This document shows, piece after piece, positions 9,586 through 37,522 of a DNA stretch of 64,000 nt (its first letter is position 1; the number at the start of each line of letters is the position of its first letter). The notes beneath the pieces were generated by a model. It was given only the letters and a program-made list of their open reading frames with translations, had not been told where the DNA came from and ran no database searches. The stretch is taken from the NCBI GenBank assembly GCA_000701625.1, contig JNJK01000015.1, forward strand, positions 1 to 64,000, written 5' to 3'. The position numbers and the translations under genes are program-made. Origin of the DNA: Lachnospiraceae bacterium MC2017 (lineage in GTDB: Bacteria; Bacillota; Clostridia; Lachnospirales; Lachnospiraceae).

Positions 9586-9699
9586 ATCAGCCTTTCATGC
9601 CAGCGCCTTTCGGCGGGCTCTATACTCCTCATTCTGCCTCACCATATACATGGCTGCAGTAGCCGCTTTGAACGCGCATTTGCGCAAAACAGCTATATT

Positions 9700-9745: not shown

Positions 9746-9803
9746 TTTATTAAAACTTGATAAACTTGAATAACAAAGACCAAAATTTAGTACAAGTTAA
9801 AGA

Positions 9804-18444: not shown

Positions 18445-18481
18445 TTTAGTCCTCCAGGAAATTGCTTGCTTTACATTTACT

Positions 18482-18802: not shown

Positions 18803-18813
18803 TTATCATATTA

Positions 18814-19608: not shown

Positions 19609-19652
19609 GTATTTGCTCCTTTATAATCAAACTAAAATGCTAAGTATAAGAA

Positions 19653-19677
19653 GTTCTGATCACTTCGTTCTCAGAAC
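19653..19677 (-). other. Small dyad between bcd and etfB
   Basis: A 7-bp inverted repeat (19653-19659 with 19671-19677) with an 11-nt loop lies in the bcd-etfB space. There is no T tract, so an RNA stability role is more likely than termination. Confidence 0.35.
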
Positions 19678-19720
19678 AAAGTTCACACTAAACTCGAAAA
19701 AACCTCGTTAAGTGTTCACT

Positions 19721-20881: not shown

Positions 20882-20909
20882 TATATTTCCTCCATATATA
20901 AAGTCGGAA

Positions 20910-20942
20910 GCCGACTGCCATGATAATTCGCCGGCAGTCGGC
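20910..20942 (-). other. Intercistronic hairpin between hbd and bcd
   Basis: Perfect 10-bp GC-rich arms (20910-20919 with 20933-20942) enclose 13 nt. It lies 22 bp past the hbd stop codon and lacks a T run, so the message likely continues. It may protect or divide the transcript. Confidence 0.6.
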
Positions 20943-20964
20943 GCCGAATGTTCTTTTTATAAAA

Positions 20965-21843
20965 TTAAAGCTTGTCTACCGGAGTCTTTGTACGATCTTC
21001 GTTGTACTTGTAGAAACCGATGCCTGTCTTTACGCCAAGCTTCTTTCCGCGAACCATCTTGCGGAGAAGCGGGCATGCGCGATACTTGCTGTCGCCTGTC
21101 TCCTTGTAGAGAACATCCATGATAGCAAGAACGATATCAAGACCGATGTAATCACCGAGCTCAAGGGGTCCCATCGGGTGGTTGCAGCCGAGCTTCATTG
21201 CTGTATCGATACCCTCGATATCAGAAATGCCCTCGCTGTATACGAAGATACCTTCGTTGATCATCGGAACAAGGATTCTGTTTACAACGAAACCAGGAGC
21301 CTCGTTAACCTGTACCGGGATCTTTCCAAGAGCCTTGGAGATCTCAACAACCTTCTCAGTTGTCTCCTTCGGTGTGTTTGCACCGGAGATAACCTCGATG
21401 AGCTTCATTACAGGAGCCGGATTGAAGAAGTGCATGCCGATGATAGGCTTTGAAAGTCCGGAACCGATCTCTGTAATGGAAAGTGAAGAAGTATTTGATG
21501 CATAGATGCAGTCAGGATTCTTAACGATCTCATCCTGAAGCTCCTTGAATGTAGCCTTCTTGATATCCATAACTTCAAGAGCTGCCTCAACTACGAGATC
21601 AGGATCTGTAGCCTGAGAGTTAAGACCTGTAGAGATCTTTGCGAGATAGCTGTCAGCTGTCTCCTGTGTGATCTTCTCCTTCTTTACGAGTCTGGAAAGA
21701 TTCTTTTCGATCTTAGCCTTTCCGCCATCAGCGAACTCCTGCTTAATATCGCAAAGATAAACCTTCTCAACCTCACCGCACTGTGCAAATGCCTGTGCGA
21801 TACCGCTTCCCATTGTGCCGGCACCGATAACTGCTACCTTCAT
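20965..21843 (-). CDS. hbd: 3-hydroxybutyryl-CoA dehydrogenase
   Basis: It reduces acetoacetyl-CoA to 3-hydroxybutyryl-CoA with NAD(P)H. The Rossmann motif GAGTMGSGIAQAFA is at the N-terminus. The catalytic His-Glu region appears as GMHFFNPAPVMKLIEVI near residue 140, and NEAPGFVVNRIL marks the start of the C-terminal helical domain. The 292-residue length is close to that of the clostridial enzyme. An AGGAGG site precedes the ATG. It lies between crt and bcd. Confidence 0.96.
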   Translation of the reverse strand: MKVAVIGAGTMGSGIAQAFAQCGEVEKVYLCDIKQEFADGGKAKIEKNLSRLVKKEKITQETADSYLAKISTGLNSQATDPDLVVEAALEVMDIKKATFKELQDEIVKNPDCIYASNTSSLSITEIGSGLSKPIIGMHFFNPAPVMKLIEVISGANTPKETTEKVVEISKALGKIPVQVNEAPGFVVNRILVPMINEGIFVYSEGISDIEGIDTAMKLGCNHPMGPLELGDYIGLDIVLAIMDVLYKETGDSKYRACPLLRKMVRGKKLGVKTGIGFYKYNEDRTKTPVDKL

Positions 21844-21922
21844 TTGTATTTCCTCCTGTTTATTCTTACGGGATATTTAGCCGGTCCCGTCTCCGGAATC
21901 TATCAAAAAATGTTAAAGTCAA

Positions 21923-22717
21923 TTACTCGTTCTTGAACTCAACGTGCTTAACCTTAGCCGGATCATCCTTCTTTCTAAGGAAGTTTGCCATACCCTCTTT
22001 CTGATCGTATGACTCGAAGCATGAACCGAAAAGCTTCTCTTCGATAACGAGAGCATCGTCGATATTTGTCTGCATGCCATCGTTGATAGCCTTCTTGCAG
22101 GCACGTACAGCGATAGGAGCATTCTGAGCGATGGTATTTGCCATCTTCTCAGCTGTTGCCATAAGTTCCTCAGCCGGAACTACCTGATTTACGAGACCGA
22201 TTCTCAGAGCCTCATCAGCCTTGATATTTCTTGCAGTGTAGATCATCTGCTTAGCCATACCCATGCCTACGAGACGAGCAAGTCTCTGTGTTCCGCCAAA
22301 GCCCGGTGTGATTCCGAGACCAACCTCAGGCTGACCAAATACTGCATTCTCAGATGCGATCCTGATATCACAGCTCATGGAGATCTCACAGCCACCGCCA
22401 AGTGCGAAGCCATTGATAGCTGCGATCACAGGAATCGGGAATGCTTCGATCTTACGGAAAACATCATTTCCCTTCTTACCGAAAGCTTCGCCCTCTGCCT
22501 TTGTAAGTGTGCTCATCTCTCCGATGTCAGCACCAGCTACGAAGGATTTGTCGCCTGCACCTGTAAGAACAAGGCAGCGAACAGCGTTTGTGTCAACACT
22601 GTCAAGAACAGCGTTAAGATCATCAAGAACCTGAGAATTAAGTGCATTGAGAGCCTTCTCACGGTTAATTGTCATAACTGCGATCTGACCCTTAACTTCA
22701 TAATCAACGAATCCCAT
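21923..22717 (-). CDS. crt: 3-hydroxybutyryl-CoA dehydratase (crotonase)
   Basis: It dehydrates 3-hydroxybutyryl-CoA to crotonyl-CoA. The oxyanion-hole segments of the crotonase fold are present: SFVAGADIGEM near residue 62 and NGFALGGGCEISMSCDIRIA near 105. The two catalytic glutamates lie in GGGCEI and in FGQPEVGLGITPGFGG. At 264 residues it is typical. A GAGGA site is placed 9 nt before the ATG. It lies second in the operon, after thl, from which a hairpin separates it. Confidence 0.95.
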   Translation of the reverse strand: MGFVDYEVKGQIAVMTINREKALNALNSQVLDDLNAVLDSVDTNAVRCLVLTGAGDKSFVAGADIGEMSTLTKAEGEAFGKKGNDVFRKIEAFPIPVIAAINGFALGGGCEISMSCDIRIASENAVFGQPEVGLGITPGFGGTQRLARLVGMGMAKQMIYTARNIKADEALRIGLVNQVVPAEELMATAEKMANTIAQNAPIAVRACKKAINDGMQTNIDDALVIEEKLFGSCFESYDQKEGMANFLRKKDDPAKVKHVEFKNE

Positions 22718-22753
22718 TTAATTGGTTCCTCGCTTTCATTTTATTTTTGTAAA

Positions 22754-22775
22754 AGGGGAAGTAACCACTTCCCCT
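22754..22775 (-). other. Terminator-like hairpin between thl and crt
   Basis: A perfect 9-bp stem (22754-22762 with 22767-22775) with a 4-nt loop is followed on the minus strand by TTTTACAAAAAT. It could be a leaky terminator that makes thl more abundant than the downstream genes. Confidence 0.55.
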
Positions 22776-22800
22776 CTTTAGTTACATGCTTTAATAAAGA

Positions 22801-23985
22801 TTACTCTTCGTAAGCCTTAACAACTGTTGAGCAGCCCATACCACCACCGATACACAGTGTAGCAAGACCTGTCTTTGCACCAGTTCTCTCCATGTTGTGA
22901 AGAAGAGTAACAAGGATACGGCATCCTGAAGCTCCTACCGGATGTCCAAGAGCGATAGCACCACCTGTTACGTTGAGCTTGTTGAGATCGAAGCCAAGAT
23001 CCTTACCTACTGCAACAGACTGTGCTGCAAATGCCTCGTTTGCCTCATAGATATCGAAGTCTTCGATAGTCATGTTGAGCTTCTTCATAACCTTCTTTGT
23101 GGAAGCTACAGGTCCTACACCCATGATGGAAGGATCTACGCCGCCGAGAGCTCCGCCAACCCATGTAGCCATAGGCTTAACACCAAGCTCCTTAGCCTTC
23201 TCCTCAGACATAACAACAACTGCTGCTGCACCGTCGTTGATACCTGAAGCATTACCAGCTGTAACAACACCATCCGGATTGATAGCACGAAGCTTGCTAA
23301 GAGACTCAGCTGTTGTACCAGCACGAGGGCCCTCGTCTGTATCAACAACGATAGTCTGCTTCTTCTGCTTAACTTCTACAGGAACGATCTCCTTCTTGAA
23401 GTAGCCCTTCTCGATAGCGTCAACAGCCTTCTGCTGGCTCTTTGCAGCGAACTCATCAAGTTCTTCACGAGTAAGTCCCCACTGCTCAGCTACATTATCA
23501 GCTGTCTTGATCATGTGATAATCATTGAATGCATCCCAAAGAGCATCCTTGATCATTGTATCAATAAGTGTATTGTTGCCCATTCTGTAACCAAAACGAG
23601 CCTTATCAAGTGCGAAAGGAGCCATGGACATATTTTCCATACCGCCTGCAACTACGATATCAGCATCGCCTGCCTCGATCATCTGAGCAGCCATATTTAC
23701 GCTGTCAAGACCTGAACCGCAAACTACGTTTACTGTAACAGCAGTTGTCTCGATCGGAAGACCTGCCTTAAGAGTTGCCTGACGTGCAACGTTCTGGCCA
23801 AGACCTGCCTGGATTACGCATCCCATATATACATGATCTACCTGCTCTGCAGGAACGCCTGCTCTCTTAAGAGCTTCTTTGATGACGATTGCGCCAAGGT
23901 CAACTGCAGGAGTTGTGGAAAGTGCGCCGCCCATTTTGCCGATTGCAGTACGGCATGCGCCTGCAAGTACGATCTTCTTTGCCAT
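22801..23985 (-). CDS. thl: Acetyl-CoA acetyltransferase (thiolase)
   Basis: It condenses two acetyl-CoA into acetoacetyl-CoA, the entry step of butyrate synthesis. The nucleophilic cysteine is in [14 protein letters not shown] near residue 89. The second active-site motifs are NEAFAAQ and [14 protein letters not shown]. The catalytic base cysteine lies in CIGGGMG near residue 380. At 394 residues it is a standard tetrameric biosynthetic thiolase. An AAGGAGG site lies 8 nt before the ATG. It is the promoter-proximal gene of the thl-crt-hbd-bcd-etfB-etfA operon. Confidence 0.96.
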
Positions 23986-25126: not shown

Positions 25127-26926
25127 ATGCGAGAACTCGAATATCCCTTTGACGGAAATTACATTATAAAAAAGAAAAAATCTCTGCGTCGTCAGCTTTT
25201 GAGTGAGGAAGGTGTCCGTTTTACACCTCTCCGTATCGCGATCCTCGGCGGCGAAACAACTAACGATATCAAAAACGTTATGGAGCTTTTTCTCCTGAAC
25301 AACAAGATCCAACCGGAATTTTATGAATCCGAGTATAACCGTTATTACGAAGATGCAATGTTTCCTAACGAGGAACTGGAATCTTTTAAGCCGGAACTCA
25401 TTTTTTTCTGTACCTGTAACAGAAACATTGCCGAGTTTCCGGAAATCACAGATAGTAATGAACTTGTCGAAAGCAAACTCCAAAGCACATACGAAAGATT
25501 TCAGGCAATGTGGGACCATGTTTCCACGACTTATAACTGTCCGATCATCCAGAACAATTTTGATCCCCCTATGTTCCGTCTCATGGGAAACCGTGATTCA
25601 TGGGACATTCACGGACGAACAAATTTCATCAACAGACTTAACCAGCTTTTTGCGGAATATGCTGCAGCGCATGAGAATTTTTACATACACGACATCAATT
25701 ATGAAGCTTCAGTGATCGGTCTTTCTAACTGGTCCGATTCTTCGTACTGGCACATGTATAAATATGGTGTATCTGTTCCCGCGATCCCTTTTTTCTCATT
25801 TAACGTATCTAATATCGTCAAGTCAATAATAGGAAAAAACAAAAAAGTGCTCATGCTCGACATGGATAATACGCTTTGGGGCGGAGTCATCGGTGATGAT
25901 GGAGCAGATAATATAGAAATCGGACAGGAAACTGCCATGAGCCAGGTCTACAGCGAGTTCCAGAGCTATGTGAAATCTCTTAAGTCTCTGGGCGTCCTTC
26001 TGACCGTTAATTCTAAAAATGATCATGATACGGCTGTTAAGGGATTGGAACGACCTGATTCTATCCTCCATCCCGACGACTTTGTCTCCATGAAGATAAA
26101 CTGGGATCCAAAGAGCAGAAATCTCGTAGATACCGCTGCTGAACTTAATCTCCTGCCTGAAAGTTTTGTCTTTGCCGATGATAATCCGGCAGAACGAGAG
26201 ATCATCAGACAGGAAGTTCCCGGAGCCTCTGTTCCAGAAATTGGCAACAGCCCCGAGCACTATATCGAGATCCTTGACCGTTCGGGATTTTTCGAAACTA
26301 CAAACCTTTCTGCCGATGACCTCAAACGCAATGAAATGTATCAGGCTAATGCAGCAAGAAGTGCTGCCAAGGCTTCTTTCCAAGATTATGATGATTATCT
26401 GAAATCTCTACAGATGAATGGTGAGATACAGGGCTTTGTCCCTGCATATATGGCACGTATCGCCCAGCTCACAAATAAGAGCAATCAGTTTAATCTCACC
26501 ACAAAGAGATATACTCAAAGCGAGATCGAGGCTGTTTCTGCTGATCCGTCCTACATTGATATATATGGAAAACTTACTGACAAATTCGGGGACAACGGTG
26601 TAGTTAGTGTGGTTATTGGAAATGTCCGCAATAACGAGTGTCACATTGATCTCTGGATCATGAGCTGCCGTGTTTTAAAGCGCCAGATGGAAAATGCTAT
26701 GATGGACGCACTGGTTCACGAATGTAAGGCACGGGGATTACAAAAAATTGTTGGTTACTATTACCCTACAGCCAAGAACAATATGGTCAGAGAGTTTTTC
26801 GCTGATCGAGGTTTTAATAAGATCAGCGAAGACACCGATGGTAATACCGTTTGGGAATTTGATCTGACTGCCGATTACACATTACAGAACACTGTTATTA
26901 GCGTTAATAAGACGGAGGATTGTTGA
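25127..26926 (+). CDS. FkbH-like HAD-superfamily enzyme (HAD-IIIC)
   Basis: FkbH proteins take the glyceryl group from 1,3-bisphosphoglycerate, dephosphorylate it and load it on an acyl carrier protein. The 599-residue chain has an N-terminal SGNH-like segment (about 35-220) and the HAD core. The core shows the nucleophile motif LMLDMDNTLWGGVIGDDG near residue 245, LLTVNSKND, MKINWDPKSRN and FVFADDNPAERE. A C-terminal GNAT-like domain follows (about 430-590). The ATG at 25127 has an AAAGGA site; the frame opens 21 codons earlier without one. It heads a plus-strand operon of four genes, 1 bp before the VOC gene, ending with a carrier protein. The true acyl group is not shown by sequence. Confidence 0.85.
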   Translation: MRELEYPFDGNYIIKKKKSLRRQLLSEEGVRFTPLRIAILGGETTNDIKNVMELFLLNNKIQPEFYESEYNRYYEDAMFPNEELESFKPELIFFCTCNRNIAEFPEITDSNELVESKLQSTYERFQAMWDHVSTTYNCPIIQNNFDPPMFRLMGNRDSWDIHGRTNFINRLNQLFAEYAAAHENFYIHDINYEASVIGLSNWSDSSYWHMYKYGVSVPAIPFFSFNVSNIVKSIIGKNKKVLMLDMDNTLWGGVIGDDGADNIEIGQETAMSQVYSEFQSYVKSLKSLGVLLTVNSKNDHDTAVKGLERPDSILHPDDFVSMKINWDPKSRNLVDTAAELNLLPESFVFADDNPAEREIIRQEVPGASVPEIGNSPEHYIEILDRSGFFETTNLSADDLKRNEMYQANAARSAAKASFQDYDDYLKSLQMNGEIQGFVPAYMARIAQLTNKSNQFNLTTKRYTQSEIEAVSADPSYIDIYGKLTDKFGDNGVVSVVIGNVRNNECHIDLWIMSCRVLKRQMENAMMDALVHECKARGLQKIVGYYYPTAKNNMVREFFADRGFNKISEDTDGNTVWEFDLTADYTLQNTVISVNKTEDC

Positions 26927-26927
26927 T

Positions 26928-27326
26928 TTGTCTTTGAAAGTGCACCACATCGGATATATGATAAAGAAGATTTCCCGTTCTCTGCCACAGTTCCTTGAAC
27001 TCGGATATGCGGTAGAAATCCCGGAATTTTCTGACGAAAGTCGTAAATGCGATTTCTGTTTTTTGATAAAAGATGGTTACAGGGTTGAACTTATCAGCCC
27101 ATGGAGTGAGGAGTCTTCTCTTTTTCCGATGCTTAAACATCACAAAAATATGATGTATCACATCTGCTACGAGACTGATGATATTCAGGCAGAGATCGAC
27201 CGGCTCACCGGACTTCATTATGCTCTTATAGAGCCGCCAGCAGCTGCCCCCGCGATTTCCGGCACTGCTATTGTTGCTTTCCTCATGCACAAGGATCTTG
27301 GGATGATCGAACTCGTGAAGGAATGA
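26928..27326 (+). CDS. VOC-fold (glyoxalase/epimerase-like) protein
   Basis: This 132-residue protein has the vicinal-oxygen-chelate fold, closest in pattern to methylmalonyl-CoA epimerase-like members. The N-terminal metal-ligand histidine is in VHHIGYMIKKI, a glutamate in RVELISPW, another histidine in MYHICYET, and a C-terminal glutamate in GMIELV. The start is TTG with a GGAGG site 9 nt upstream. It is 1 bp from the FkbH stop, so it is surely co-translated. It may act on an intermediate bound to the carrier protein; substrate unknown. Confidence 0.75.
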   Translation: MSLKVHHIGYMIKKISRSLPQFLELGYAVEIPEFSDESRKCDFCFLIKDGYRVELISPWSEESSLFPMLKHHKNMMYHICYETDDIQAEIDRLTGLHYALIEPPAAAPAISGTAIVAFLMHKDLGMIELVKE

Positions 27327-27353
27327 GTCAAAATATTTATATAAGGAGTTATT

Positions 27354-28253
27354 ATGCCGAAACTAACTGACAAGCTTATCGCAGATATTTCAGAAAAGAA
27401 TCCTTTACAGAAGATGTATCTAAAGGAACTTTTCGAAAATGATATCCTGGATGAAGAAATAACCGATCTTGAGAATATACTGGAACTTCTCTGCAATGAA
27501 CACACTATTGAGGAACTTGCAGATGCATATCTTCTTCTGGTAGGGGATACAATGGAAGAAACCGCCTTTTTCATTCGGAACGGTCACTACCGCTACTCTA
27601 CTCTTGCTGAAGTTAATGAAAAGGTTTATCAAAACACAGAGTACATGAGTAAATATATGCTCGGTCTCATGCTTTCAGGTTATCTCTGGAAAAACCATCT
27701 TGCGATCAACAGGTATTTTAAGAAGGCCATTTCTACTTTCAGGGGAAAGAATTATCTGGAAATCGGACCGGGGCACGGCAGATATTTTCTCGAAGCTATC
27801 AATATCGGTGCTTTTGATCATTACACAGGAGTTGATCTTTCTCCCAGTTCCATCGAGCTGGCTCGGAGCTTTATTGAATTAGGCAAAGTATCTGATGCGA
27901 AACCTTATGATCTTATCTGTGCCGATATAAATAAGTATGAATTTGATTCACTTTTTGATGGTGTTAGTATCAGCGAGGTTTTGGAACATGTGGAGGATCC
28001 TCGTTCTCTATTAAAACGGATACATGAGATTACAAAAGAAGGGGCTGATGTTTACGTTTCCGTACCGATCAATGCACCCGAGATCGATCACATCTATCTT
28101 TTTAAGAGTAACGAAGAGGTCTTCAGGATGGTTGAAGAAGAGAATTTTGCCATTAAGGATTCTTTTTATGTTACATCCAACGGTGTTTCTTATGAAAAGG
28201 CGCAGAAAAAGCGCATAGCTGTTAATCTTGCAATGCACCTCATTCGCAAGTAA
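27354..28253 (+). CDS. SAM-dependent methyltransferase
   Basis: The 299-residue protein has an N-terminal helical domain (about 1-125) and a class I methyltransferase core. The SAM-binding motif I is NYLEIGPGHGRYFLEA near residue 135, followed by the acidic motif YTGVDLSPSSIELA. SEVLEHVEDPRSLLKRIHE is the usual post-motif. Its place between the VOC gene and the carrier protein suggests methylation of the carrier-bound glyceryl-type unit, as FkbG does in methoxymalonyl-ACP synthesis. That role is inferred from context only. An AAGGAG site precedes the ATG. Confidence 0.8.
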   Translation: MPKLTDKLIADISEKNPLQKMYLKELFENDILDEEITDLENILELLCNEHTIEELADAYLLLVGDTMEETAFFIRNGHYRYSTLAEVNEKVYQNTEYMSKYMLGLMLSGYLWKNHLAINRYFKKAISTFRGKNYLEIGPGHGRYFLEAINIGAFDHYTGVDLSPSSIELARSFIELGKVSDAKPYDLICADINKYEFDSLFDGVSISEVLEHVEDPRSLLKRIHEITKEGADVYVSVPINAPEIDHIYLFKSNEEVFRMVEEENFAIKDSFYVTSNGVSYEKAQKKRIAVNLAMHLIRK

Positions 28254-28307
28254 AATAGTACAGGCAGTAACATTTTGATTTCGTATATTAATGAAATGGA
28301 GATAATA

Positions 28308-28547
28308 ATGACAAAAGAAGAGGTTTTTAGCCGTCTTACAGAGGTTTTCAGAGATGTTTTTGATGATGAGAGCATCGAGATTTCCGAAAGCACTACTTCT
28401 GCTGATATTCCCGATTGGGATTCTTTCGAACACATTAATCTGATCCTTGCTGTTGAGACAGAGTTTGGTGTTAAGATTCCTATGGGAAAGGCCGTTACGC
28501 TGAAGAATGTCGGCGAGCTGGCTGAGACTATTATTTCTATGCTGTAA
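28308..28547 (+). CDS. Acyl carrier protein (FkbH operon)
   Basis: A 79-residue carrier protein. The phosphopantetheine-attachment serine lies in IPDWDSFEHINLI near residue 40, followed by the usual helix-rich end (VKIPMGKAVTLKNVGELAETI). The ATG at 28308 has a GGAG site; the frame continues 11 codons upstream without one. It is the last gene of the FkbH-VOC-methyltransferase operon, directly before a strong terminator. It is the likely acceptor of the group loaded by FkbH. Confidence 0.88.
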   Translation: MTKEEVFSRLTEVFRDVFDDESIEISESTTSADIPDWDSFEHINLILAVETEFGVKIPMGKAVTLKNVGELAETIISML

Positions 28548-28554
28548 AAAATAA

Positions 28555-28589
28555 GAGAGCCGCTACGTTGTGTAGCGGTTCTCTTTTTT
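28555..28589 (+). terminator. Terminator of the FkbH operon
   Basis: An 11-bp stem with one wobble (28556-28566 with 28572-28582), a 5-nt loop and a run of seven T lie 8 bp past the carrier-protein stop codon. Confidence 0.9.
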
Positions 28590-28602
28590 GTGTGGTAGTG
28601 AC

Positions 28603-28834
28603 GTCCGCAGGCGAATGTTGACCGCTCAGAAGCCCGGCGGGATTTGCCGAATCCCGGTCACGACTCGCTAGCCGCTCGCCCTTAGCACGGGCTCGCGGAG
28701 CGATTCGGACAGTGTATCCGTCAAATCCCAAACGCCTCCAGATGCTTCCTCAGGTCAGCATTTCGCCTGCGGACTGTCGCTTCGCTCAGTCCTTGACAGA
28801 GAATGTGACTTTTCGAAATTCTCAGCGCAAGCGC
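28603..28834. repeat. GC-rich nested-hairpin element
   Basis: This gene-free stretch is visibly richer in GC than its surroundings. Outer arms 28603-28623 and 28753-28774 pair almost perfectly over 21 bp. Inside are gggattt/aaatccc (28639-28645 with 28723-28729), ccgaatc/gattcgg (28647-28653 with 28702-28708) and an inner stem at 28672-28698. Three further hairpins follow (28771-28792, 28799-28823, 28825-28834). It may be a palindromic mobile repeat or a structured RNA. Confidence 0.6.
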
Positions 28835-28862
28835 AGAAGTCGCAGGTTCTTTCTATAAGTTA

Positions 28863-28906
28863 AAGAAGGTCGTCTGATGAAAAACATCTGGACGACCTTC
28901 TTTTTT
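28863..28906. terminator. Bidirectional terminator
   Basis: A 12-bp perfect stem (28863-28874 with 28891-28902) is followed by a T run on the plus strand and a shorter one on the minus strand. It lies directly beyond the stop of the minus-strand SGNH gene and also faces any transcript leaving the GC-rich element. Confidence 0.75.
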
Positions 28907-30191
28907 AGTCTGCTTTCATATATATCTTTCCATTATAGTCATACTGGAAGTATTGTTTTGCGGCGAATTCACCGTCGGATTTTCTTCTGACTTCTATTTT
29001 CATGTCGTAGTTTCCGGTTGTTTCCTGTTCGGGATCTTCTATTACCTCTACTTCAAAGTTTTCCAGGCAGTAATCCATGGCGTACTGGGTTTGAAGCAGA
29101 GTTTTGTCTGTTACATATATTGTATATTTGTAATCTTCTCCACCAAGCCAGTTCATATAGGATACTGCATCAACCTGTTCTGCGACGCGTTTTAGCCGCT
29201 GTGCTTTGTATTTCTGCACATCTTCTGTCCATGGCTCTGCATATACCGGATCATTCCTGTGATCCCCGATCTTGAGATCATTTGTCATATACTCTGCCAG
29301 CTTATCAGCTGTTTTATTTCCACCAAGATAGTTCAAATGGACCGAATCTCCAAAGTCATAGTCGTAGTCTATATCAATGTCTGCATCTTTTTCATTTAAG
29401 CCCATATATGCTCCGCCATGTTCTTTTGTAAGTTTTTTCAGAGCATTCATGCGACGCTGGCGTTTTTCATTGAACATATGTCCCGGAACCGGAACATCTA
29501 CAAGGACACATCTGATACCCTTTTCCTTGCACAGATCAAGGATTTTTGTGAGATATACTGTTCCGTCTCCTCCTTTTAGTGTTTCTGATTCATCTGTATA
29601 CTCAGAAATACCTTCAACCTGACGAAACGTGCTAAGCATATATGCGCCCTTGTCATAATTATAGTTTGCGACAAAGTCATCTTTTGTCAGATTTTCATAG
29701 CGATTATGATATGCATAGAGTGGAGAAATAAAGGCCAGCATGCCTCCGTCAAAAAACTTTCCTGCATATTTTATTGCTTCAAGCTTATTCTCATTTAACG
29801 GCAGAGCATCAATGGATTGATGAACATAGCCATAACCGCAATTTATATCATCTTTTACGTCACCAATTATTGCAGAATCAACAAATACAACTTTGGGATT
29901 GCTGTGCTCCAATGCTTCTCTTACTACAAAATATGTAACCTGGATCGATTCTCCTGCTGATGCAAGATTATATGAAGAAATTCCATAGTTATTCCAAATA
30001 TATATAGGATCGATCGCTTCATGCATCCGGCTCGCACCGAAGTATAATGCGTCGAATTCCGTTTTTGCATTAAAGAATTCACTTTTTCCGTTTCTACTGG
30101 TCTTGTCCCGAAGCAAATTTGAAAGAGATACTGTCACAAGTGCAACCAATAGAAGAAAAGCGATAGTTGATATAGCTTTTTTCATCCTCAT
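28905..30191 (-). CDS. Membrane-anchored SGNH-like protein, MBOAT partner
   Basis: The 428-residue protein has one N-terminal membrane segment (about residues 6-24) and an extracytoplasmic domain. The SGNH/GDSL-type motifs are YFGASRMHEAIDP near residue 50 (serine) and DSVHLNYLGGNKTA near 285 (Asp-x-x-His). Such proteins (DltD, AlgX/AlgJ, PatB types) complete O-acyl transfer started by an MBOAT protein. The MBOAT gene abuts it directly upstream. It shares the DHRND motif with the three larger SGNH proteins in this window, near the end of the catalytic domain. The exact acyl group and glycan are unknown. Confidence 0.75.
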   Translation of the reverse strand: MRMKKAISTIAFLLLVALVTVSLSNLLRDKTSRNGKSEFFNAKTEFDALYFGASRMHEAIDPIYIWNNYGISSYNLASAGESIQVTYFVVREALEHSNPKVVFVDSAIIGDVKDDINCGYGYVHQSIDALPLNENKLEAIKYAGKFFDGGMLAFISPLYAYHNRYENLTKDDFVANYNYDKGAYMLSTFRQVEGISEYTDESETLKGGDGTVYLTKILDLCKEKGIRCVLVDVPVPGHMFNEKRQRRMNALKKLTKEHGGAYMGLNEKDADIDIDYDYDFGDSVHLNYLGGNKTADKLAEYMTNDLKIGDHRNDPVYAEPWTEDVQKYKAQRLKRVAEQVDAVSYMNWLGGEDYKYTIYVTDKTLLQTQYAMDYCLENFEVEVIEDPEQETTGNYDMKIEVRRKSDGEFAAKQYFQYDYNGKIYMKAD

Positions 30192-31754
30192 TTAAAACCC
30201 CGCGTAAATGAAATCTGCCGAATGGTATCCCGGACCGTACTCGCCGTATACTATAACGCATGCAAACAATGCGATCCAAATGATCCATCTGAATACAAGT
30301 CCCTGCTCTGCGATCCAGTTTCTTGCATAACCATATTTTTCACGCAAAACTGCTGCAAATATAAGGATGACGATTCCCGCAAGTATAATTGTAAAGTCAA
30401 ACTTCGTAAGCCCAGCCTTGTAAAGACTTCCATCTGTAAAAATCCATAAATTTGCAGCAGATGGCATCAGAGCACCAAACATCCGCCTGATCATCTTTAC
30501 AGCTTCGGATATTCCATCAGACCTAAAAAACACCATCGATAACGTATAAACAATATATGTTCTGATGCGTCTGAACATTATCCATCCAAAGCTTTCTTCT
30601 TTGATATGGAGAATACTATTTAGTCTGCTTAACACAGGACCGAGGATTTCATATGATATCATTACAAACCAATACCATATACTGCATCCGACGATGAATT
30701 TATAATTTCCATGCCATACACCCATTACGAACCATGTACAAAAGACACCTATCGCAAGAGAAGCTATCTTTGAGGCACGTTTTCCATATTTCTTCTTTAC
30801 GGATTTTGTAAGTGCTACTACTCTTTTTGATTTGAGCACAGGATACATAATATAATCCTTTGCCCAGTTTCCGAGAGACATATGCCATCTCTGCCAAAAT
30901 TCCTGTGAAGTCTGCGAAAAAAACGGGTTATTGAAATTTTCCGGGAGTGTGATCCCAAATAGTTCTGCCGCACCTAACACAACATCAACGCTTCCCGAGA
31001 AATCTGTATAAATCTGTACCGGATAAAGAAGTGCTGCAACCCATGTCCACAATCCTGTGTAAGAAGCCGGATCACCGTAGACTGTATTTACTACTATCGA
31101 AACTCGTTCTGCGATTACCAGCTTTTTGAAAAAGCCCCAGAGGATCCTTTGCGAACCTCTGGCAATCCTGTCTATTGAAAATCTTACTCCTGTATAAAAC
31201 TGAGGCGCAAGCGCCGAATGGCGGCTTATCGGTCCCGTGGTCAGCTGAGGAAAGAATGCAAGAAACAGAAACAGCTTCCCAAAGTTCTTTTCGGGCTTTG
31301 CCGTCCCCCAGCTGCAATCAATGATATACCCTATGGTCTGACAAGTGTAATAACCCATACCAAAAGCTGCTGCAAGAGGAACAGCCTTCATTTCCGGAAA
31401 AAACGAAAATTTTGCATGAAGCCACGCAGAAAGCTGGATCCAGTATGCACTTCCCTTCATTACGAACCAAACAGCAATATTTAACACTATTGCTATCGTT
31501 ATGACCGCTGTTGTTTTTTTATTAAATCCGTTCAGCGCATCTCCGTTTTCCGGATCTGACATAATAATTCCTGAAAAATATGCCAGGCCTGCCGAAAACA
31601 GTAAAAAAAGTATTGTATATGGTGTCGCCGCAAGGCAATAAAAAACAATGCTCAGAATAAGCATTGTCACCCATTGCATTTTTCCGGGAGTAAGGTAATA
31701 GATCAATACTGCCGCCAATAAAAACAGTATAAACCCCAATGATATTATGTTCAT
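30192..31754 (-). CDS. MBOAT-family O-acyltransferase (MBOAT1)
   Basis: This polytopic membrane protein of 520 residues has about ten hydrophobic segments. The two MBOAT signatures are SQEFWQRWHMSLGNW near residue 300 and the catalytic histidine in FVMGVWHGNYKF near 365. The family (AlgI, DltB, PatA) moves acyl groups across the membrane to surface polymers. The ATG at 31754 has an AGGAGG site; the longer frame starts before the promoter. The SGNH gene follows with no gap, forming an AlgI-AlgJ-like pair. Confidence 0.92.
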   Translation of the reverse strand: MNIISLGFILFLLAAVLIYYLTPGKMQWVTMLILSIVFYCLAATPYTILFLLFSAGLAYFSGIIMSDPENGDALNGFNKKTTAVITIAIVLNIAVWFVMKGSAYWIQLSAWLHAKFSFFPEMKAVPLAAAFGMGYYTCQTIGYIIDCSWGTAKPEKNFGKLFLFLAFFPQLTTGPISRHSALAPQFYTGVRFSIDRIARGSQRILWGFFKKLVIAERVSIVVNTVYGDPASYTGLWTWVAALLYPVQIYTDFSGSVDVVLGAAELFGITLPENFNNPFFSQTSQEFWQRWHMSLGNWAKDYIMYPVLKSKRVVALTKSVKKKYGKRASKIASLAIGVFCTWFVMGVWHGNYKFIVGCSIWYWFVMISYEILGPVLSRLNSILHIKEESFGWIMFRRIRTYIVYTLSMVFFRSDGISEAVKMIRRMFGALMPSAANLWIFTDGSLYKAGLTKFDFTIILAGIVILIFAAVLREKYGYARNWIAEQGLVFRWIIWIALFACVIVYGEYGPGYHSADFIYAGF

Positions 31755-31785
31755 GTAAATCCTCCTGCTACCTGTGAACTGTAAC

Positions 31786-31814
31786 ATTATACCCAAATAG
31801 GAATTTAGATACAA
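31786..31814 (-). promoter_or_regulatory. Promoter of MBOAT1-SGNH
   Basis: A perfect TATAAT (31786-31791) with TTGTAT (31809-31814) 17 bp upstream on the minus strand. The decamer TGTTACAGTT overlaps the start-point region (31777-31786). Confidence 0.55.
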
Positions 31815-31856
31815 CCTCAAAAAGTTCTTCATTTGAACGGTCTTTCGCTAATACAA

Positions 31857-31886
31857 AAGGAGGCAGGTTATTACACCTGCCCCCCT
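31857..31886 (-). terminator. Terminator of the secreted-protein gene
   Basis: A GC-rich stem (core GGCAGGT/ACCTGCC, from 31859 to 31885) is followed by CTTTTGTATT on the minus strand, 27 bp past the stop codon at 31913. Confidence 0.75.
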
Positions 31887-31912
31887 TAAAAAGGATAAAA
31901 CCGTATTTTTAA

Positions 31913-33355
31913 TTACTTTTTGATGTTCTTAGCAACACCACGGTAAGAACCGTTTCCAGTGAAGTTTACTGATCCATCAGAATTTACAGACCAAAGAAGA
32001 TCTCCAACGATCTGTCCCTTTGCATCTGTCTTAAATGTATTGGAATCAACACGCTTTGCAAGCTTCAGAGCCTTACTTCTCTTCATGGTACGAACATTGA
32101 AAGTGCCTTTCTTCATCTTCCAGTTCTGCCATGCGATATTTGCCCTAAGCTTATTTCCATCAGAAGAAGGAGAAAGCTTACTTATATAATATGCATTTGC
32201 CTTCTTTTTATCTGTAGTAAAGAGGTCTGTAGAAATCTTCTTAGGCTCGATAGTGAAATAAAACTTTGTATTCTTGAGAAGCTTTCTAAGCGCATTTCTG
32301 TCTGATCTGCTGAGAACGCCGTCGTCTGTATTTCTGAAAGATACAGAAAGTGTGAAGTACGGTGCCTTATTTGCGCTTGCAGACGCAACAGCCTTACCAT
32401 TCTTGATAACAGCCTTCTTGATCGTGATACCATTCTGGTCTTTCCAATAGTAATCACCATAGCTGTCACCCTTTACAGGGTAATAAAGACCATTTGAACT
32501 AAGCTTTGTAAATCTTACAGATATACCGATAGCACCGTCAATAGTTCCATCTACATCACTGTCATTTATACGATGAGTATTTGCTGTTATGCGTGCTCCT
32601 CTGTATTCGCATGCACCATCGTATTCAACTTCCATAAATGTCTTTGCACCATTTATAGAACCGATCTCAAGACGTCTTGTTACAACTTCACCTGCATTTG
32701 CCTCATGCACAAATACTTCACCTGTAACTCCATCTGCCGGTGTAAACGTAATATTCTTCTGGTTATCAAGATTTGCAAGCTTTAAGGTGAATACAACTGT
32801 CTGATTTCCTGTTACACCGGAAAGAATACCATTCTTTACTTCAACAGTTTTTGAAGTTGTTTTTCCAAAGTCCTTGATAGCATATGAAATGATAATGTTT
32901 GATGAAAGGCTGTCAGAAATCTTCTTTCCGTCAGTGATCGCCCATCTCTCTTCACCTGTAGTATTATCAGATATAAATCTGTATGTTGCTCCGTTATTTT
33001 CTAAACTTGTGTGCTCCAAAATCTCTGCACGGATGATACTTTCCGGCAATGTATTATCAGACAGAACTTTGAGGTCGTCCATCTGATCATCACTTACCGT
33101 CATAACCGTATTTCCGCTCAAAAGCTCATCTGCCGGATTTTTTGTGTCAGGTGCAATTTCAGCAATTTCCGAATCCTTGATCTCGGTATACTCTGATACT
33201 TCCTCAAATTCGTCATCACCAAAAATCTGCTCTGCCATTCCTATTCCATTTGCAGCGCTGCCATTAGTTTCCTTAGCAAAAGCGGCGGTATTTATAGAAA
33301 ATACCATAGACGCTGCAAGAATCATAGAAATGATCTTTCTTGTTCTTTCTCTCAT
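31913..33355 (-). CDS. Secreted protein of unknown function
   Basis: I do not recognise this 480-residue protein. It has a clear signal peptide (residues 1-27, cleavage near AAFAKE). An acidic segment follows (about 45-75). Beyond that is a long Thr/Asn/Gly-rich, beta-predicted region with no catalytic motif I can name. The last 130 residues are basic and contain several short Lys-rich turns, for example NWKMKKGTFNVRTMKRSKAL. No LPXTG or other sorting signal is present, so it is probably released or loosely wall-bound. It is transcribed alone between the second carrier-protein gene and MBOAT1. A surface-matrix or adhesin role is only a guess. Confidence 0.7.
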   Translation of the reverse strand: MRERTRKIISMILAASMVFSINTAAFAKETNGSAANGIGMAEQIFGDDEFEEVSEYTEIKDSEIAEIAPDTKNPADELLSGNTVMTVSDDQMDDLKVLSDNTLPESIIRAEILEHTSLENNGATYRFISDNTTGEERWAITDGKKISDSLSSNIIISYAIKDFGKTTSKTVEVKNGILSGVTGNQTVVFTLKLANLDNQKNITFTPADGVTGEVFVHEANAGEVVTRRLEIGSINGAKTFMEVEYDGACEYRGARITANTHRINDSDVDGTIDGAIGISVRFTKLSSNGLYYPVKGDSYGDYYWKDQNGITIKKAVIKNGKAVASASANKAPYFTLSVSFRNTDDGVLSRSDRNALRKLLKNTKFYFTIEPKKISTDLFTTDKKKANAYYISKLSPSSDGNKLRANIAWQNWKMKKGTFNVRTMKRSKALKLAKRVDSNTFKTDAKGQIVGDLLWSVNSDGSVNFTGNGSYRGVAKNIKK

Positions 33356-33469
33356 GTCTACTCTCCCATCCTAAATAATATTTACTGTATGTTCCTGTAA
33401 ACTGTAACAAACGGTTTAAGTTAAACACACACTTACAACGTGTATACATCTTTTTGTACCACGTTTTCT

Positions 33470-33498
33470 ATTATAACCAAAAAGACCGACTCCTTCAA
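33470..33498 (-). promoter_or_regulatory. Promoter of the secreted-protein gene, overlapping a terminator
   Basis: On the minus strand TTGAAG (33493-33498) and a perfect TATAAT (33470-33475) are 17 bp apart. The -35 element forms the loop and part of the stem of the upstream terminator. The leader is about 105 nt. Confidence 0.5.
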
Positions 33499-33509
33499 GG
33501 AATCGGTCT
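33478..33509 (-). terminator. Terminator of the second carrier-protein gene
   Basis: A 12-bp stem with one wobble (33483-33509) and a short loop is followed by TTTTT on the minus strand, 41 bp past the stop codon at 33550. Confidence 0.75.
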
Positions 33510-33549
33510 CTTAAGACTTTTTTAATATTGTAATAATATAAGATTATAC

Positions 33550-33777
33550 TTACTCATTCCGAAGCTTCTGGATAAGATCCCACATAGCTTCTACTGTATT
33601 AAAGTTCTCCGGCATCAGATCATTGACATTAATGTCAATATCAAACTGATCATTTATTTCTCCAACGATAGAGATAATATCAAAGGAATCAAGTATCTCG
33701 TCGTCAATAAGTGCCTCTTCATTCTGAAAATCCACATCCGGTCTGATCTCAGACAGGAGATTTAATAATTCGTCCAT
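33550..33777 (-). CDS. DltC-like acyl carrier protein
   Basis: A 75-residue carrier protein. The phosphopantetheine serine is in DDEILDSFDIISIVGEI near residue 31, a pattern closer to DltC (GLLDSM-type) than to fatty-acid ACP. It lies 170 bp downstream of MBOAT2 on the same strand, with its own promoter, and an AGGA site precedes the ATG. This makes a DltB/DltC-like pair. No DltA (D-alanine-activating enzyme) lies nearby, so the acyl group may not be D-alanine. Confidence 0.85.
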   Translation of the reverse strand: MDELLNLLSEIRPDVDFQNEEALIDDEILDSFDIISIVGEINDQFDIDINVNDLMPENFNTVEAMWDLIQKLRNE

Positions 33778-33835
33778 TTTGTCCTCTCTTTCACTTCATT
33801 CGGGATTCAAAGGCAGACCGCCTTTTCTTTCGTAC

Positions 33836-33864
33836 ATTTTAACAGTGTAAGCATCACTGTGCAA
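33836..33864 (-). promoter_or_regulatory. Promoter of the DltC-like gene
   Basis: On the minus strand TTGCAC (33859-33864) and TAAAAT (33836-33841) are spaced by 17 bp. An AT-only 9-bp dyad (33895-33903 with 33912-33920) between this and MBOAT2 may act as a weak terminator. Confidence 0.45.
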
Positions 33865-33947
33865 TATATTGTAACGATGTTCGATATTTTTTCAAGATTT
33901 TTTTCACAACCAAAAAATCTTTTTATGCACACACATTCGTTTTTATC

Positions 33948-35564
33948 TTAGAAATTCTGATAAATGAATGACGATGCATCATATCCGGCACCATATATAC
34001 CAAATATAAGTACTGCAAAAATCGCTGCGTAATAGACGATCCATCTTGCCGGAAATACCATTCCCGCAATACGATTACGTATAACTACACCCTTTTCATT
34101 AAAGTAGTCAACAACCATCAGGAACACTATCATCACTATAAGAAGATTCCAGTTTTTCTGATCAAGTCCCATATTCAGAAGGCTGTTATCGGAAAACACC
34201 CATAAATTGAATGACGAGAACATTGCTCTTATCATGCGGACCGCATCCATCGCAGATGTCCCTCTGGAAAAGAAACGACCTACAAGAACGATCATTGTTG
34301 TTCTCAATACCTGAAAAGAACTATACCAGAAACTCTTATCATCTATTTTTAGCTTTGTCCTGATATCCATATACAGCTGCTCAAATAGTGTATTAGATGA
34401 AACAAATGTCGCCATAAAAATACCATAGACAACATACTTCCACTCGGCGCCATGCCATATACCTACGATCAGGAATGCTATAAAAGATGCAAATGTCGGA
34501 ACCAGTACTCTTCCATAATGATTTCCAAATTTCTTTTTAAGGCTTTTCTGAGCCCTTGCCGCACGCTTTGACAGACAGATCGGATAGAATACGTAGTCTT
34601 TCATCCATCCGCCGAGCGTCATATGCCATCTCTGCCAGAACTCGGATACGCTCTTAGCAAAATACGGCTGACGGAAGTTCTCTGTAAGATGGATTCCAAG
34701 CATATCAGATGCTCCGAATACGATATCCATTCCTCCGGAAAAATCCGCATAAATCTGAAAACCATAAAGAAGTGCCGCTATAAAAATGACAAATCCCTGA
34801 TATCCGGCTGAATCATAATTTGAAAATACTTCATTAACAAAGATTCCTGCTCTCTCTGCAATGACCATTTTCTTAAAGTATCCCCAAAGAAGTCTCATAA
34901 AACCGGTTCGGAATCCAAAATCATCCCAATAATGAGGTTCTTCCAGCTGTTTCGCCATGTCATTATAGCGACCGATCGGTCCCTGTATGATCTGCGGAAA
35001 ATATGCCGTAAACAGGGCGAAATGGAAAAACTTATGATCAGCCGCGTATTTGCCTCTATATATATCAATAAGATATCCCATTGTAATGAAAGTGTAGAAA
35101 GATATTCCAAGAGGAAGAATAAAACTTGTCTCCGGTATTCTGCCACCCATTCCAAATGCGGTCATCGCAGCATCTATATTATCGATTACGAAATTTCCAT
35201 ACTTTAAAACAATGAGTATGCCAAAATTAAGCAACAAACCTGCTATAAGATATACCCTCTTCTGCTTTACGGATTCGTTTTTCAGTCCGTTTTTTTCATC
35301 AGAAGAAAGCTTTTTACCTGATGCCTTTGCTTCATCAAGCTTTGCCTGATAAGCAAGCTGTATCTTCTCGATCTTTCGTGCCGCTAAATAGGTCGTGATG
35401 GTGGTGACCAGAATAAATACAACACCTTTCCATCCTGTTCCATAGCAGTAAAAAAAATAACTCGCAATGAGAAGTACTGCCCACTGAATCTTTTTAGGCA
35501 CGATGTAATATACCAGGATCGTAAGAAGTAAAAAAACAAAAAATGTTAACGAAAAAAGTGTCAT
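33948..35564 (-). CDS. MBOAT-family O-acyltransferase (MBOAT2)
   Basis: A 538-residue polytopic membrane protein. The MBOAT motifs are SEFWQRWHMTLGGWMKDYVFYP near residue 310 (19-residue core) and the catalytic histidine in LIVGIWHGAEWKY near 365. A charged cytoplasmic loop (about residues 65-105, rich in Lys and Glu) is inserted after the second helix; MBOAT1 lacks it. Its start overlaps the stop of the large SGNH gene upstream by 4 bp (ATGA), and a DltC-like carrier gene follows. The set resembles DltD-DltB-DltC in order and type. Confidence 0.92.
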   Translation of the reverse strand: MTLFSLTFFVFLLLTILVYYIVPKKIQWAVLLIASYFFYCYGTGWKGVVFILVTTITTYLAARKIEKIQLAYQAKLDEAKASGKKLSSDEKNGLKNESVKQKRVYLIAGLLLNFGILIVLKYGNFVIDNIDAAMTAFGMGGRIPETSFILPLGISFYTFITMGYLIDIYRGKYAADHKFFHFALFTAYFPQIIQGPIGRYNDMAKQLEEPHYWDDFGFRTGFMRLLWGYFKKMVIAERAGIFVNEVFSNYDSAGYQGFVIFIAALLYGFQIYADFSGGMDIVFGASDMLGIHLTENFRQPYFAKSVSEFWQRWHMTLGGWMKDYVFYPICLSKRAARAQKSLKKKFGNHYGRVLVPTFASFIAFLIVGIWHGAEWKYVVYGIFMATFVSSNTLFEQLYMDIRTKLKIDDKSFWYSSFQVLRTTMIVLVGRFFSRGTSAMDAVRMIRAMFSSFNLWVFSDNSLLNMGLDQKNWNLLIVMIVFLMVVDYFNEKGVVIRNRIAGMVFPARWIVYYAAIFAVLIFGIYGAGYDASSFIYQNF

Positions 35565-37522
35565 GCTGCGCCTTGTTCCTTTCCTTTGCCGTGTTCCGAT
35601 CTTAATTCAAAACACTTACTCTCATCCCCATATTCTGCTGTAAGCACATAATTTCCGCTTCTGTCCACAGCAAGATATTTATCTGCAAACAATGACAATA
35701 TACGCATGTTGCCGTTACTATCCGTAAATACCGTCCATTGCTGAGATGCAAGTCCGGTTTCTTCCTGCATTGTGACAGGTGTTCTTTCTGCATTATCAAA
35801 GTTTTCCGGTGTAAGCACCATTCCGCTTTCGATATCCTTGATCATATAACATCCATCATCAGTAGAAACAAATTTAAGATTTTTCTTATTTCCATTTGTT
35901 ATGAGAACACCATTTTCTATTTTAGTTTTTTCGGATTCAGTATTGTTTCTCAACCGATCTTCTGCATCGCCATCCGGAACATGATCTTCAAAACAAAGTT
36001 TCCCTTTATCATCAAGTCCAAAAGCTGACCTTGAAATCACCTTTCCGTCAGACCTGTCGATCACTACCATGTTTATTCCGGGGAAATCGCAGGTATACTC
36101 TCGTCCATCAACCTCAAGAATACTCTCTTTACCTGATGTTGCCCCCGAGCTTACGATATGGTACGAATGCTTTTCTCCGTCTTTGGAAACAAAGCTTCCT
36201 AAAAGCTCCTCTTTTCTATAGCTTGTCCTTGAAAAAATATCTCCATCCCGGTCCGCAACAGCGACCACTGACTTCTGTGATTCCGGATTTATACCATTTT
36301 CAAAACCCATTCTTTGAAACAGTTCATCCATCCCGGTATCATAGAAGGCCTCCGCGTCCTGATACACCATGAGCAAAACAATGTACTTATCTGTATGATC
36401 TGCAACATCACTTAAATATCTGTATATTTTTTGACGAGGATACAGGCAGTCATATACCGTTGATCTCTCCCATTTCAGATACGTATCTGCCGTTTCATTC
36501 CATATTCCATCCGTCGAACGGTGATCCGTAAATATATTCATGGATTTAAGATAACCCGCAAACCAATGTGAGGTTTTTGCGTTACCAACATAATTCAGAT
36601 GATAGCCGTTATCATGAGTGTCTGTATCCCAGTCAAACTTAAGTCCATCCTGATCTAGCATATTTTCTATTTTATTAGCACCACGATCAGCGAGATATGC
36701 ATTGATCTTATCCGTCCATTCACTATTCCAGTGCCTTGTGGGGCACTTTACCGGAATCATCTGTATATCATTTTCATTACAGTAAGCAATAATCTTTTCA
36801 AGATATGATGCCGCGTCACTGCTTATGTCCATGTGTGCCTCAGAATAACTTTGTGTCCCGTCAGTCTCAAGAACAGTTTTTTCCGTAGTCCTTATACCGA
36901 CCTCATCTGATGCATATTCATTGGAGGAATAAAATCTAAGGGCGGATCCCCTGAGATAGTAATTGCTTTCATTTACTCCCTGAAAGCTTTCACGATTCAG
37001 ATCAGTCCATCGATCATGAAAATTATACAGGGGAAAAAGCGCTGAATAGACGGTATCCATATCCGGACTACAGTCAAATATCGCATGGAACTTTGTTATA
37101 GAAGGCTTCATTGCAAGGAGTTCTTTTAATATAAGAGAACTTGAGTCCTTATCAGCTATCAGCGACGATACATCAACAAATACAGCTTTGAGTTTATGTT
37201 TCTTTCCGGCTTCCAATACCCAATAGTACGAACAGGACATATTTTGCTGTTCACCTGCCAGCACATAGCCCGTATATCCTGTTTCTTCATATATCTGCAT
37301 AGGATTTACGGCATAGTTCGCATGACTTGTCCCAACAACTATATAATCCAACGTATTATCCGGAAGCTTATAGAAATCACGATAACGTGTACCTTCACCC
37401 GCATCATCTCTGTCCATGGTATAAGTCCATTTCGGAACCATAACATCAGTAAGGCGCACTATCAGAAATATTCCTATTGCACAAAAAAATATCAGCATTA
37501 ATGCTGATTTTAATTTCTTCAA
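35561..37522 (-). CDS. SGNH-like protein with ILEI-like and ricin-type domains
   Basis: The 653-residue protein has one N-terminal membrane segment (about 7-27). The SGNH-like domain shows VVGTSHANYAVNP near residue 63 and HDNGYHLNYVGNAKTSHW near 305. The shared DHRS motif follows. A middle region resembles the ILEI/PANDER fold (GINMVVIDRSDGKVISRSAFG, about 475-495). The end is a ricin-type beta-trefoil-like domain (about 540-640, with SQQWTV), likely sugar-binding. The start is TTG, with an AAAGGG site. Coupled to MBOAT2, it is probably the extracellular transferase or esterase partner. Domain names are by eye. Confidence 0.75.
   Translation of the reverse strand: MKKLKSALMLIFFCAIGIFLIVRLTDVMVPKWTYTMDRDDAGEGTRYRDFYKLPDNTLDYIVVGTSHANYAVNPMQIYEETGYTGYVLAGEQQNMSCSYYWVLEAGKKHKLKAVFVDVSSLIADKDSSSLILKELLAMKPSITKFHAIFDCSPDMDTVYSALFPLYNFHDRWTDLNRESFQGVNESNYYLRGSALRFYSSNEYASDEVGIRTTEKTVLETDGTQSYSEAHMDISSDAASYLEKIIAYCNENDIQMIPVKCPTRHWNSEWTDKINAYLADRGANKIENMLDQDGLKFDWDTDTHDNGYHLNYVGNAKTSHWFAGYLKSMNIFTDHRSTDGIWNETADTYLKWERSTVYDCLYPRQKIYRYLSDVADHTDKYIVLLMVYQDAEAFYDTGMDELFQRMGFENGINPESQKSVVAVADRDGDIFSRTSYRKEELLGSFVSKDGEKHSYHIVSSGATSGKESILEVDGREYTCDFPGINMVVIDRSDGKVISRSAFGLDDKGKLCFEDHVPDGDAEDRLRNNTESEKTKIENGVLITNGNKKNLKFVSTDDGCYMIKDIESGMVLTPENFDNAERTPVTMQEETGLASQQWTVFTDSNGNMRILSLFADKYLAVDRSGNYVLTAEYGDESKCFELRSEHGKGKEQGAA

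Follow-up and report, generated by a model that had tools for sequence, protein, structure and literature searches.

What does an FkbH-type enzyme do when it lies beside genes for an MBOAT acyltransferase and an SGNH-type protein in a genome in which no polyketide synthase is found? The question is raised by contig JNJK01000015.1 of Lachnospiraceae bacterium MC2017 (GCA_000701625.1), whose positions 1 to 64,000 were analysed and are referred to throughout as the window (G000:C14:1-64000 in a genome of 4.26 Mb). The analysis established gene identities, the conservation of candidate catalytic residues, linkage that recurs between genomes, phylogenies that agree and a co-linear ortholog, and with a probability of roughly 0.72 we read positions 25127-31754 as an FkbH-charged, carrier-fed MBOAT-SGNH system that would esterify a surface glycan. 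Its features are as follows.

25127..26926, plus strand: P0001, FkbH-type HAD-IIIC enzyme (599 amino acids (aa) from the ATG at 25127; TIGR01686)
26928..27326, plus strand: P0002, VOC-fold protein resembling methylmalonyl-CoA epimerase (Glyoxalase_4)
27354..28253, plus strand: P0003, S-adenosylmethionine methyltransferase (Methyltransf_23)
28308..28547, plus strand: P0004, carrier of the FkbH class (PP-binding; 79 aa from the ATG; a longer frame runs from 28275)
28553..28585, plus strand: terminator-like hairpin (15 pairs, then a T run)
28905..30191, minus strand: P0005, SGNH-type protein with a hydrophobic N-terminus (assigned from conserved positions and homology)
30192..31754, minus strand: P0006, MBOAT (TIGR04091 below cut-off; the longest open reading frame (ORF) runs from 31832)

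The plus-strand unit is tight, with gaps of 1, 27 and 54 bases between the FkbH, VOC, methyltransferase and carrier genes, and is closed by the 15-pair hairpin. On the minus strand P0005 abuts P0006, for which the start at 31754 was preferred over 31832 because AGGAGG lies upstream of it. An FkbH-VOC-methyltransferase-carrier operon, and an MBOAT-SGNH pair between it and a further MBOAT set, had been described in the original prediction, made from the letters of the window, and all of these genes are present. Its core idea, that FkbH instead of DltA charges a carrier feeding an MBOAT/SGNH pair, appears well supported by the comparisons below, recurrent linkage included; its choice of partners was probably wrong.

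Linkage across genomes was scored as an MBOAT gene within 5 kb of FkbH. P0001 had a match in 31 of 150 genomes of the family (the window's own included), and 15 orthologs besides the window's, with 46-62% identity to P0001, were used. An MBOAT lay near FkbH in 13/15 of these, or 14/16 with the window counted. As a control, flippase genes of the same 16 genomes, including the window's, were counted irrespective of contig ends; 3/60 (the first 60 rows) lay within 5 kb of an MBOAT, and 4/85 when 25 further rows, 24 of them weak matches under the cut-off, were added. Given this low control, the proximity of FkbH and MBOAT genes is more than chance (Fisher p 4e-10 for 13/15 FkbH against 3/60 flippases). 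The survey was also carried out on the best 80 of at least 593 relatives, so that its counts concern close FkbH relatives; these named loci are largely titled Lachnospiraceae, Oscillospiraceae or Clostridia, many being metagenome bins whose names are unsure. An MBOAT was near FkbH in 58/80, and in 34/48 of those flanked on either side by 5 kb or more. A later set of 20 orthologs, 18 of them from outside the family, was assembled once the hypothesis existed (all 17 same-class matches outside the family, one from a search of the phylum and, out of four new matches in the family, two, G471 and G503 being omitted), and gave 17/20 overall, 14/15 with both flanks and 15/18 outside the family. Linkage of FkbH with an MBOAT recurs widely. 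Carrier genes were near FkbH in 15/15 family, 73/80 named and 18/20 later loci; DltA-like genes were near it in 0/15, 1/80 and 2/20, and no DltA-type adenylating enzyme was found on the window's contig.

The MBOAT and carrier that partner FkbH were identified by similarity searches and trees. When P0006 was searched against genomes of the family, blind to FkbH, the top three matches, and 6/10 of the best non-self matches, proved FkbH-linked. Twenty P0006 matches without FkbH linkage were also fetched. A tree of 117 MBOATs took, for each FkbH locus, the closest-lying MBOAT of 400 aa or more, together with rows not linked to FkbH; P0006 falls with 13 FkbH-linked MBOATs in a set of 14 rows (Shimodaira-Hasegawa approximate likelihood ratio (SH-aLRT) 95). 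P0004 likewise falls with 7 FkbH-linked carriers in a set of 8 rows (support 99) in a carrier tree of few columns. On L086, an 8-kb Lachnospiraceae contig, genes for an MBOAT, an SGNH protein, FkbH, a methyltransferase, MaoC, a short-chain dehydrogenase/reductase (SDR) and a carrier run in one direction over ~7 kb; five are orthologs of window genes (MBOAT 57%, SGNH 53%, FkbH 65%, methyltransferase 42% over 248 aa and carrier 70% identity), and the SGNH gene abuts the MBOAT gene, as in the window pair. At a further locus, L095, both halves are convergent as in the window, the methyltransferase is absent and the carrier precedes the VOC gene. Eisenbergiella tayi DSM 26961, a cultured relative, has an FkbH-carrier-MBOAT arrangement at locus L123. 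On the strength of the P0006 matches, the two trees, L086 and L095, P0001-P0004 and P0005/P0006 likely form one system, in which P0006/P0005 would be the partner of FkbH.

P0001 scores 288.8 bits against TIGR01686 (curated cut-off 146.65) and so belongs to the FkbH family. Its DxDxT motif (D245/D247/T249) and Cys514 in 'SCR' do not vary in two alignments, one with 16 and one with 20 relatives, and by pattern match DxDxT occurs in 109/112 and the 'SCR' Cys in 111/112 FkbH proteins of at least 500 aa (window included). This Cys we take to be the glyceryl carrier of the enzyme, and P0001 is predicted to load a glyceryl group onto the carrier protein. Searches against sequences of solved structures returned the uncharacterised protein 3slr for FkbH (with single sequence and with profile), two glyoxalase-like entries for the VOC protein and DltB for P0006. 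P0002 reaches 39 bits against TIGR03081 (cut-off 114.95), below the methylmalonyl-CoA epimerase equivalog; its H7, E54, H78 and E128, presumably metal ligands, are invariant in 28/28 VOC proteins compared (window included). P0002 is possibly an epimerase of the carrier-bound acyl group, acting at the alpha-carbon, and P0003 possibly an O-methyltransferase of that group. The phosphopantetheine Ser of P0004 lies in 'DSF'; 11 acyl carrier protein (ACP) models matched P0004, all under cut-off and DltC not among them, and the protein is not of the DltC type.

P0006 scores 121 bits against TIGR04091 (DltB; cut-off 375), below that equivalog, and has a WHG His motif and a C-terminal FIYAGF shuttle motif; the catalytic His and the C-terminal FxYxxF Tyr of MBOAT-SGNH systems are present in both window MBOATs. 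P0005 has no Pfam match above cut-off; G52, S54, H285 and N287 are invariant in 20 aligned proteins and D279 nearly so, and P0005 is classed as SGNH-type from these conserved Gly-x-Ser and Asp/His-x-Asn positions and from homology. An SGNH protein with Ser and Asp/His adjoins the MBOAT. P0006 is the predicted acyltransferase partner of FkbH and P0004, and P0005 the predicted last-step transferase to the glycan. TOP7, the sole solved-structure match of the SGNH profile, was weak and was taken as chance, as was an 80-aa frame antisense to P0005 whose FxYxxF motif had made it a DltX-like candidate. Among FkbH-linked MBOATs the shuttle motif was found in 61/69 and the His motif in 68/69; since most DltA-linked (23/33 and 33/33) and other MBOATs (11/13 and 13/13) also carry them, the motifs are a sign of fold and route and not of a link to FkbH.

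A mechanism can be proposed from these parts; we infer its acyl group, its acceptor and each of its reactions. P0001 would take a D-glyceryl group from 1,3-bisphosphoglycerate to the phosphopantetheine of P0004, where P0003 would O-methylate the glyceryl group and P0002 would epimerise or otherwise adjust it. P0006 would then carry the acyl group across the membrane onto the Tyr in its own C-terminal FIYAGF motif, and P0005 would transfer it to the glycan that the neighbouring polysaccharide locus produces; the product may be an O-methylglyceryl ester. The genes of that locus (glycosyltransferases, NeuB, NeuC-type epimerase, cytidylyltransferase and UDP-sugar dehydrogenase) point to an envelope glycan as the acceptor. 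The locus also holds, at 59791-61599, an acetolactate-synthase-like thiamine pyrophosphate enzyme that scores under its equivalog cut-off.

The tailoring genes vary. Within 4 kb of FkbH a methyltransferase was found at 4/113 loci, the window included. In the same 113 loci a VOC gene was near FkbH in 27, a MaoC gene in 23 and both in 0 (Fisher p 0.0017, related loci not being independent). A MaoC-type dehydratase and a FabG-like SDR lie near FkbH and the carrier at L059, L075, L086 and others, and split transketolase-like genes, with N and C halves apart, lie near FkbH at L087, L088, L091, L107 and L113.

The genome holds 8 MBOAT matches and 2 FkbH genes. The second FkbH gene, on a contig designated C2 (L019:8192-12571), forms an overlapping FkbH-carrier-MBOAT operon, which adjoins a gene matching the SGNH profile and is followed downstream by galU/galE-like genes (named by eye). 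The C2 FkbH, 36% identical to P0001, is therefore MBOAT-linked too, and the C2 carrier is 48% identical to P0004 over 67 residues. Among frames of 25-110 aa near the operon, no DltX-like small ORF with FxYxxF was found.

Several observations weigh against an FkbH-fed MBOAT-SGNH system. The two halves of the window system are separate, convergent transcription units. An FxYxxF match is absent in 8/69 FkbH-linked MBOATs, the C2 protein of this genome included. The sampling of the MBOAT tree is uneven, its rows without FkbH coming mostly from matches to P0006 and to the second window MBOAT, P0009. A DltA-like gene does lie near FkbH in 1/80 named and 2/20 later loci. An MBOAT is absent within 5 kb in 14/48 named loci with full flanks, four of which have one ~6 kb away; five loci of the L090 type, with a shared neighbourhood, have FkbH and a carrier followed by a phosphofructokinase gene. 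At L158 the FkbH ortholog (7818-9976) is preceded by DUF4910 and Antibiotic_NAT-type genes, with no MBOAT; we take this DUF4910 protein to be of the Cj1295 kind, and the neighbourhood may indicate that the same acyl group has another use as well. Among distant FkbH proteins an MBOAT was nearby in just 5/16, and the MBOAT link is accordingly regarded as mainly a property of this FkbH branch.

Such loci bear on the alternative in which the FkbH unit supplies a glyceryl-type acyl group to a cytoplasmic acyltransferase acting on an activated sugar, while P0006/P0005 merely acetylate from acetyl-CoA. In the excerpted texts of the relevant papers, Campylobacter jejuni carries a di-O-methylglyceroyl pseudaminic acid (PMC3068675) and has an fkbH-domain gene in its flagellar glycosylation locus (PMC7099621). 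A cytoplasmic route of this kind may operate for that flagellin sugar. The window itself holds a NeuB/NeuC/cytidylyltransferase set, and FkbH lies near NeuB at L159 and beside the Antibiotic_NAT-type protein at L158, neither locus having an MBOAT within 5 kb. Against this stand the strong genomic association of FkbH, carrier and MBOAT, their concordant trees and the co-linear genes of L086, and we consider a cytoplasmic route unlikely.

A different pairing within the window had been chosen by the original prediction, which assigned FkbH to the set upstream of P0006. These genes are listed here with P0007, which sits between the two MBOAT sets and on which that prediction was silent.

31913..33355, minus strand: P0007, no role assigned (signal-like N-terminus judged by eye)
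33550..33777, minus strand: P0008, DltC-like carrier of the DltA class, putatively of a separate system (identity to DltA-linked carriers)
33948..35564, minus strand: P0009, MBOAT of the DltA class, putatively of a separate system (groups with L166)
35561..37522, minus strand: P0010, SGNH-type protein with a C-terminal ricin-type domain, putatively of a separate system (RicinB_lectin_2; GTSH and HLN motifs)

The minus-strand order is SGNH-ricin, MBOAT, DltC-like carrier, P0007, MBOAT and SGNH. At 33550-37522 the SGNH-MBOAT-carrier order is present as described, with P0010 and P0009 overlapping by the stated 4 bp, and P0007 had no Pfam match in a scan of the window proteins. FkbH would here charge P0008, the group passing through P0009 and P0010; P0008 is 6.6 kb from FkbH, and all 10 AMP-binding (DltA-type) matches found in the whole genome lie on contigs other than the window's, in keeping with the remark that the window lacks DltA. 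The trees and neighbourhoods speak against such charging. P0008 is nearest to DltA-linked carriers, unlike P0004, and is 69% identical to the L166 carrier (in the tree of few columns noted above); no similarity between P0004 and P0008 was found by sequence comparison. P0009 (156 bits against TIGR04091, below the cut-off of 375) groups with the DltA-linked MBOAT of L166 (52% identity, SH-aLRT 99). Twenty of its top 21 non-self matches were fetched (G014:C368 was omitted), and a DltA-like gene lies beside 15/20 of them (one weak, at 57 bits) and FkbH beside 0/20. The nearest relative, L166, carries an AMP-binding gene in between its MBOAT and carrier genes. Assignment of FkbH to P0008/P0009 was rejected on the carrier tree, the MBOAT tree and the DltA linkage, and charging of P0008 by FkbH is judged very improbable.

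P0008-P0010 are probably a separate dlt-type set charged in trans. Reliance on a charger elsewhere is suggested by the AMP-binding gene between the L166 MBOAT and carrier, the window having none. The most likely charger is encoded on contig C1, where an operon (L020:6164-11791) runs SGNH-MBOAT-DltA-like-carrier-decarboxylase; its DltA-like enzyme passes the general amino-acid adenylation model, not the DltA equivalog, and the operon's carrier shares 45% identity with P0008. A DltA-like enzyme elsewhere in the genome, named in the original prediction as evidence that would tell against FkbH, does exist on C1; that it charges P0008 is our assumption. The C1 decarboxylase is diaminopimelate-decarboxylase-like, adjoins the carrier and recurs beside the carrier in several DltA-linked relatives; this recurrence suggests that a carrier-bound amino acid may be decarboxylated before MBOAT transfer. 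A further SGNH-ricin relative of P0010 lies at 41017-42960 of the window, with no MBOAT beside it, and adjoins a CotH-like gene.

In favour of a methoxymalonyl-carrier unit for a polyketide, FkbH, carrier and O-methyltransferase make up 3/5 genes of that pathway (PMC7489565, excerpt). This reading was rejected, since the FkbH unit contains no FkbI/FkbK-type dehydrogenase, and no polyketide synthase was found in the genome, where the sole strong ketoacyl-synthase match is one frame of FabF size (416 aa), in agreement with the original prediction. Those dehydrogenases that do lie nearby are members of a thl-crt-hbd-bcd-etf set next to FkbH (17380-23985; thiolase, crotonase, hydroxybutyryl-CoA dehydrogenase, acyl-CoA dehydrogenase and electron transfer flavoprotein) and are mistakable for FkbI/FkbK.

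The FkbH-charged, carrier-fed system would, if correct, be a second route fed by a carrier, with 1,3-bisphosphoglycerate as the source of its charge, and would couple decoration of the surface to the state of glycolysis; glycans of Clostridia would be predicted to bear base-labile esters of the glyceryl or methylglyceryl type, and many FkbH genes outside polyketide clusters would gain a function. Chances seem evenly balanced that FkbH-carrier-MBOAT-SGNH sets form a widespread second carrier-fed glycan acylation in Clostridia, drawing a glycolytic acyl group with no adenylating step, in which interchangeable on-carrier tailoring (VOC, MaoC with or without SDR, methyltransferase, split transketolase) yields a family of unusual surface esters. 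In the portions available of open-licence papers, a literature search found none joining FkbH with an MBOAT in glycan acylation; two papers, PMC13122637 and PMC10143770, mention both, and the former, in its available portion, proposes separate steps for each.

Among known systems, Dlt (DltA-DltC-DltX-DltB-DltD, teichoic acid D-alanylation) is the one carrier-fed MBOAT-SGNH route described in the excerpted text of PMC12148441, the others being taken to use acyl-CoA; DltB draws its group from the carrier, and MBOATs without DltX bear a C-terminal Tyr shuttle motif. The FkbH system shares with Dlt a carrier, a DltB-kind MBOAT, an SGNH partner and the Tyr shuttle motif, and differs in its FkbH charger in place of the adenylating DltA, in P0004, which is ACP-like and not DltC-like, and in a shuttle motif fused to the MBOAT and not carried by a separate DltX (Dlt mechanism from the same excerpt). 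By its genes it works like Dlt and is not a Dlt member, since neither DltA, DltC nor a DltB equivalog was found in it. With the PatAB, AlgIJFX and WssHIFG acetylation systems it has in common an MBOAT with the WHG His and C-terminal FxYxxF and an SGNH partner; unlike them, it has a dedicated carrier and charger linked to it. An FkbH-like enzyme and free-standing ACP also occur in the glyceryl-ACP branch of tetronate and methoxymalonyl polyketides (Mad7, Mad14 and their ACPs), one branch also having an O-methyltransferase, as in the FkbH unit (PMC7489565, excerpt); unlike that branch, the FkbH unit has no FabH-like tetronate synthase or FkbI/FkbK. The dimethylglyceroyl-pseudaminic acid of Campylobacter jejuni flagellin offers a further likeness, a glyceric-acid-type acyl group on a glycan together with an fkbH-domain gene; in that case the group is borne by a nonulosonic acid of flagellin, and no MBOAT or SGNH protein is mentioned in the excerpted texts (PMC3068675, PMC7099621), whereas the system of the window would pass its acyl group through an MBOAT-SGNH pair.

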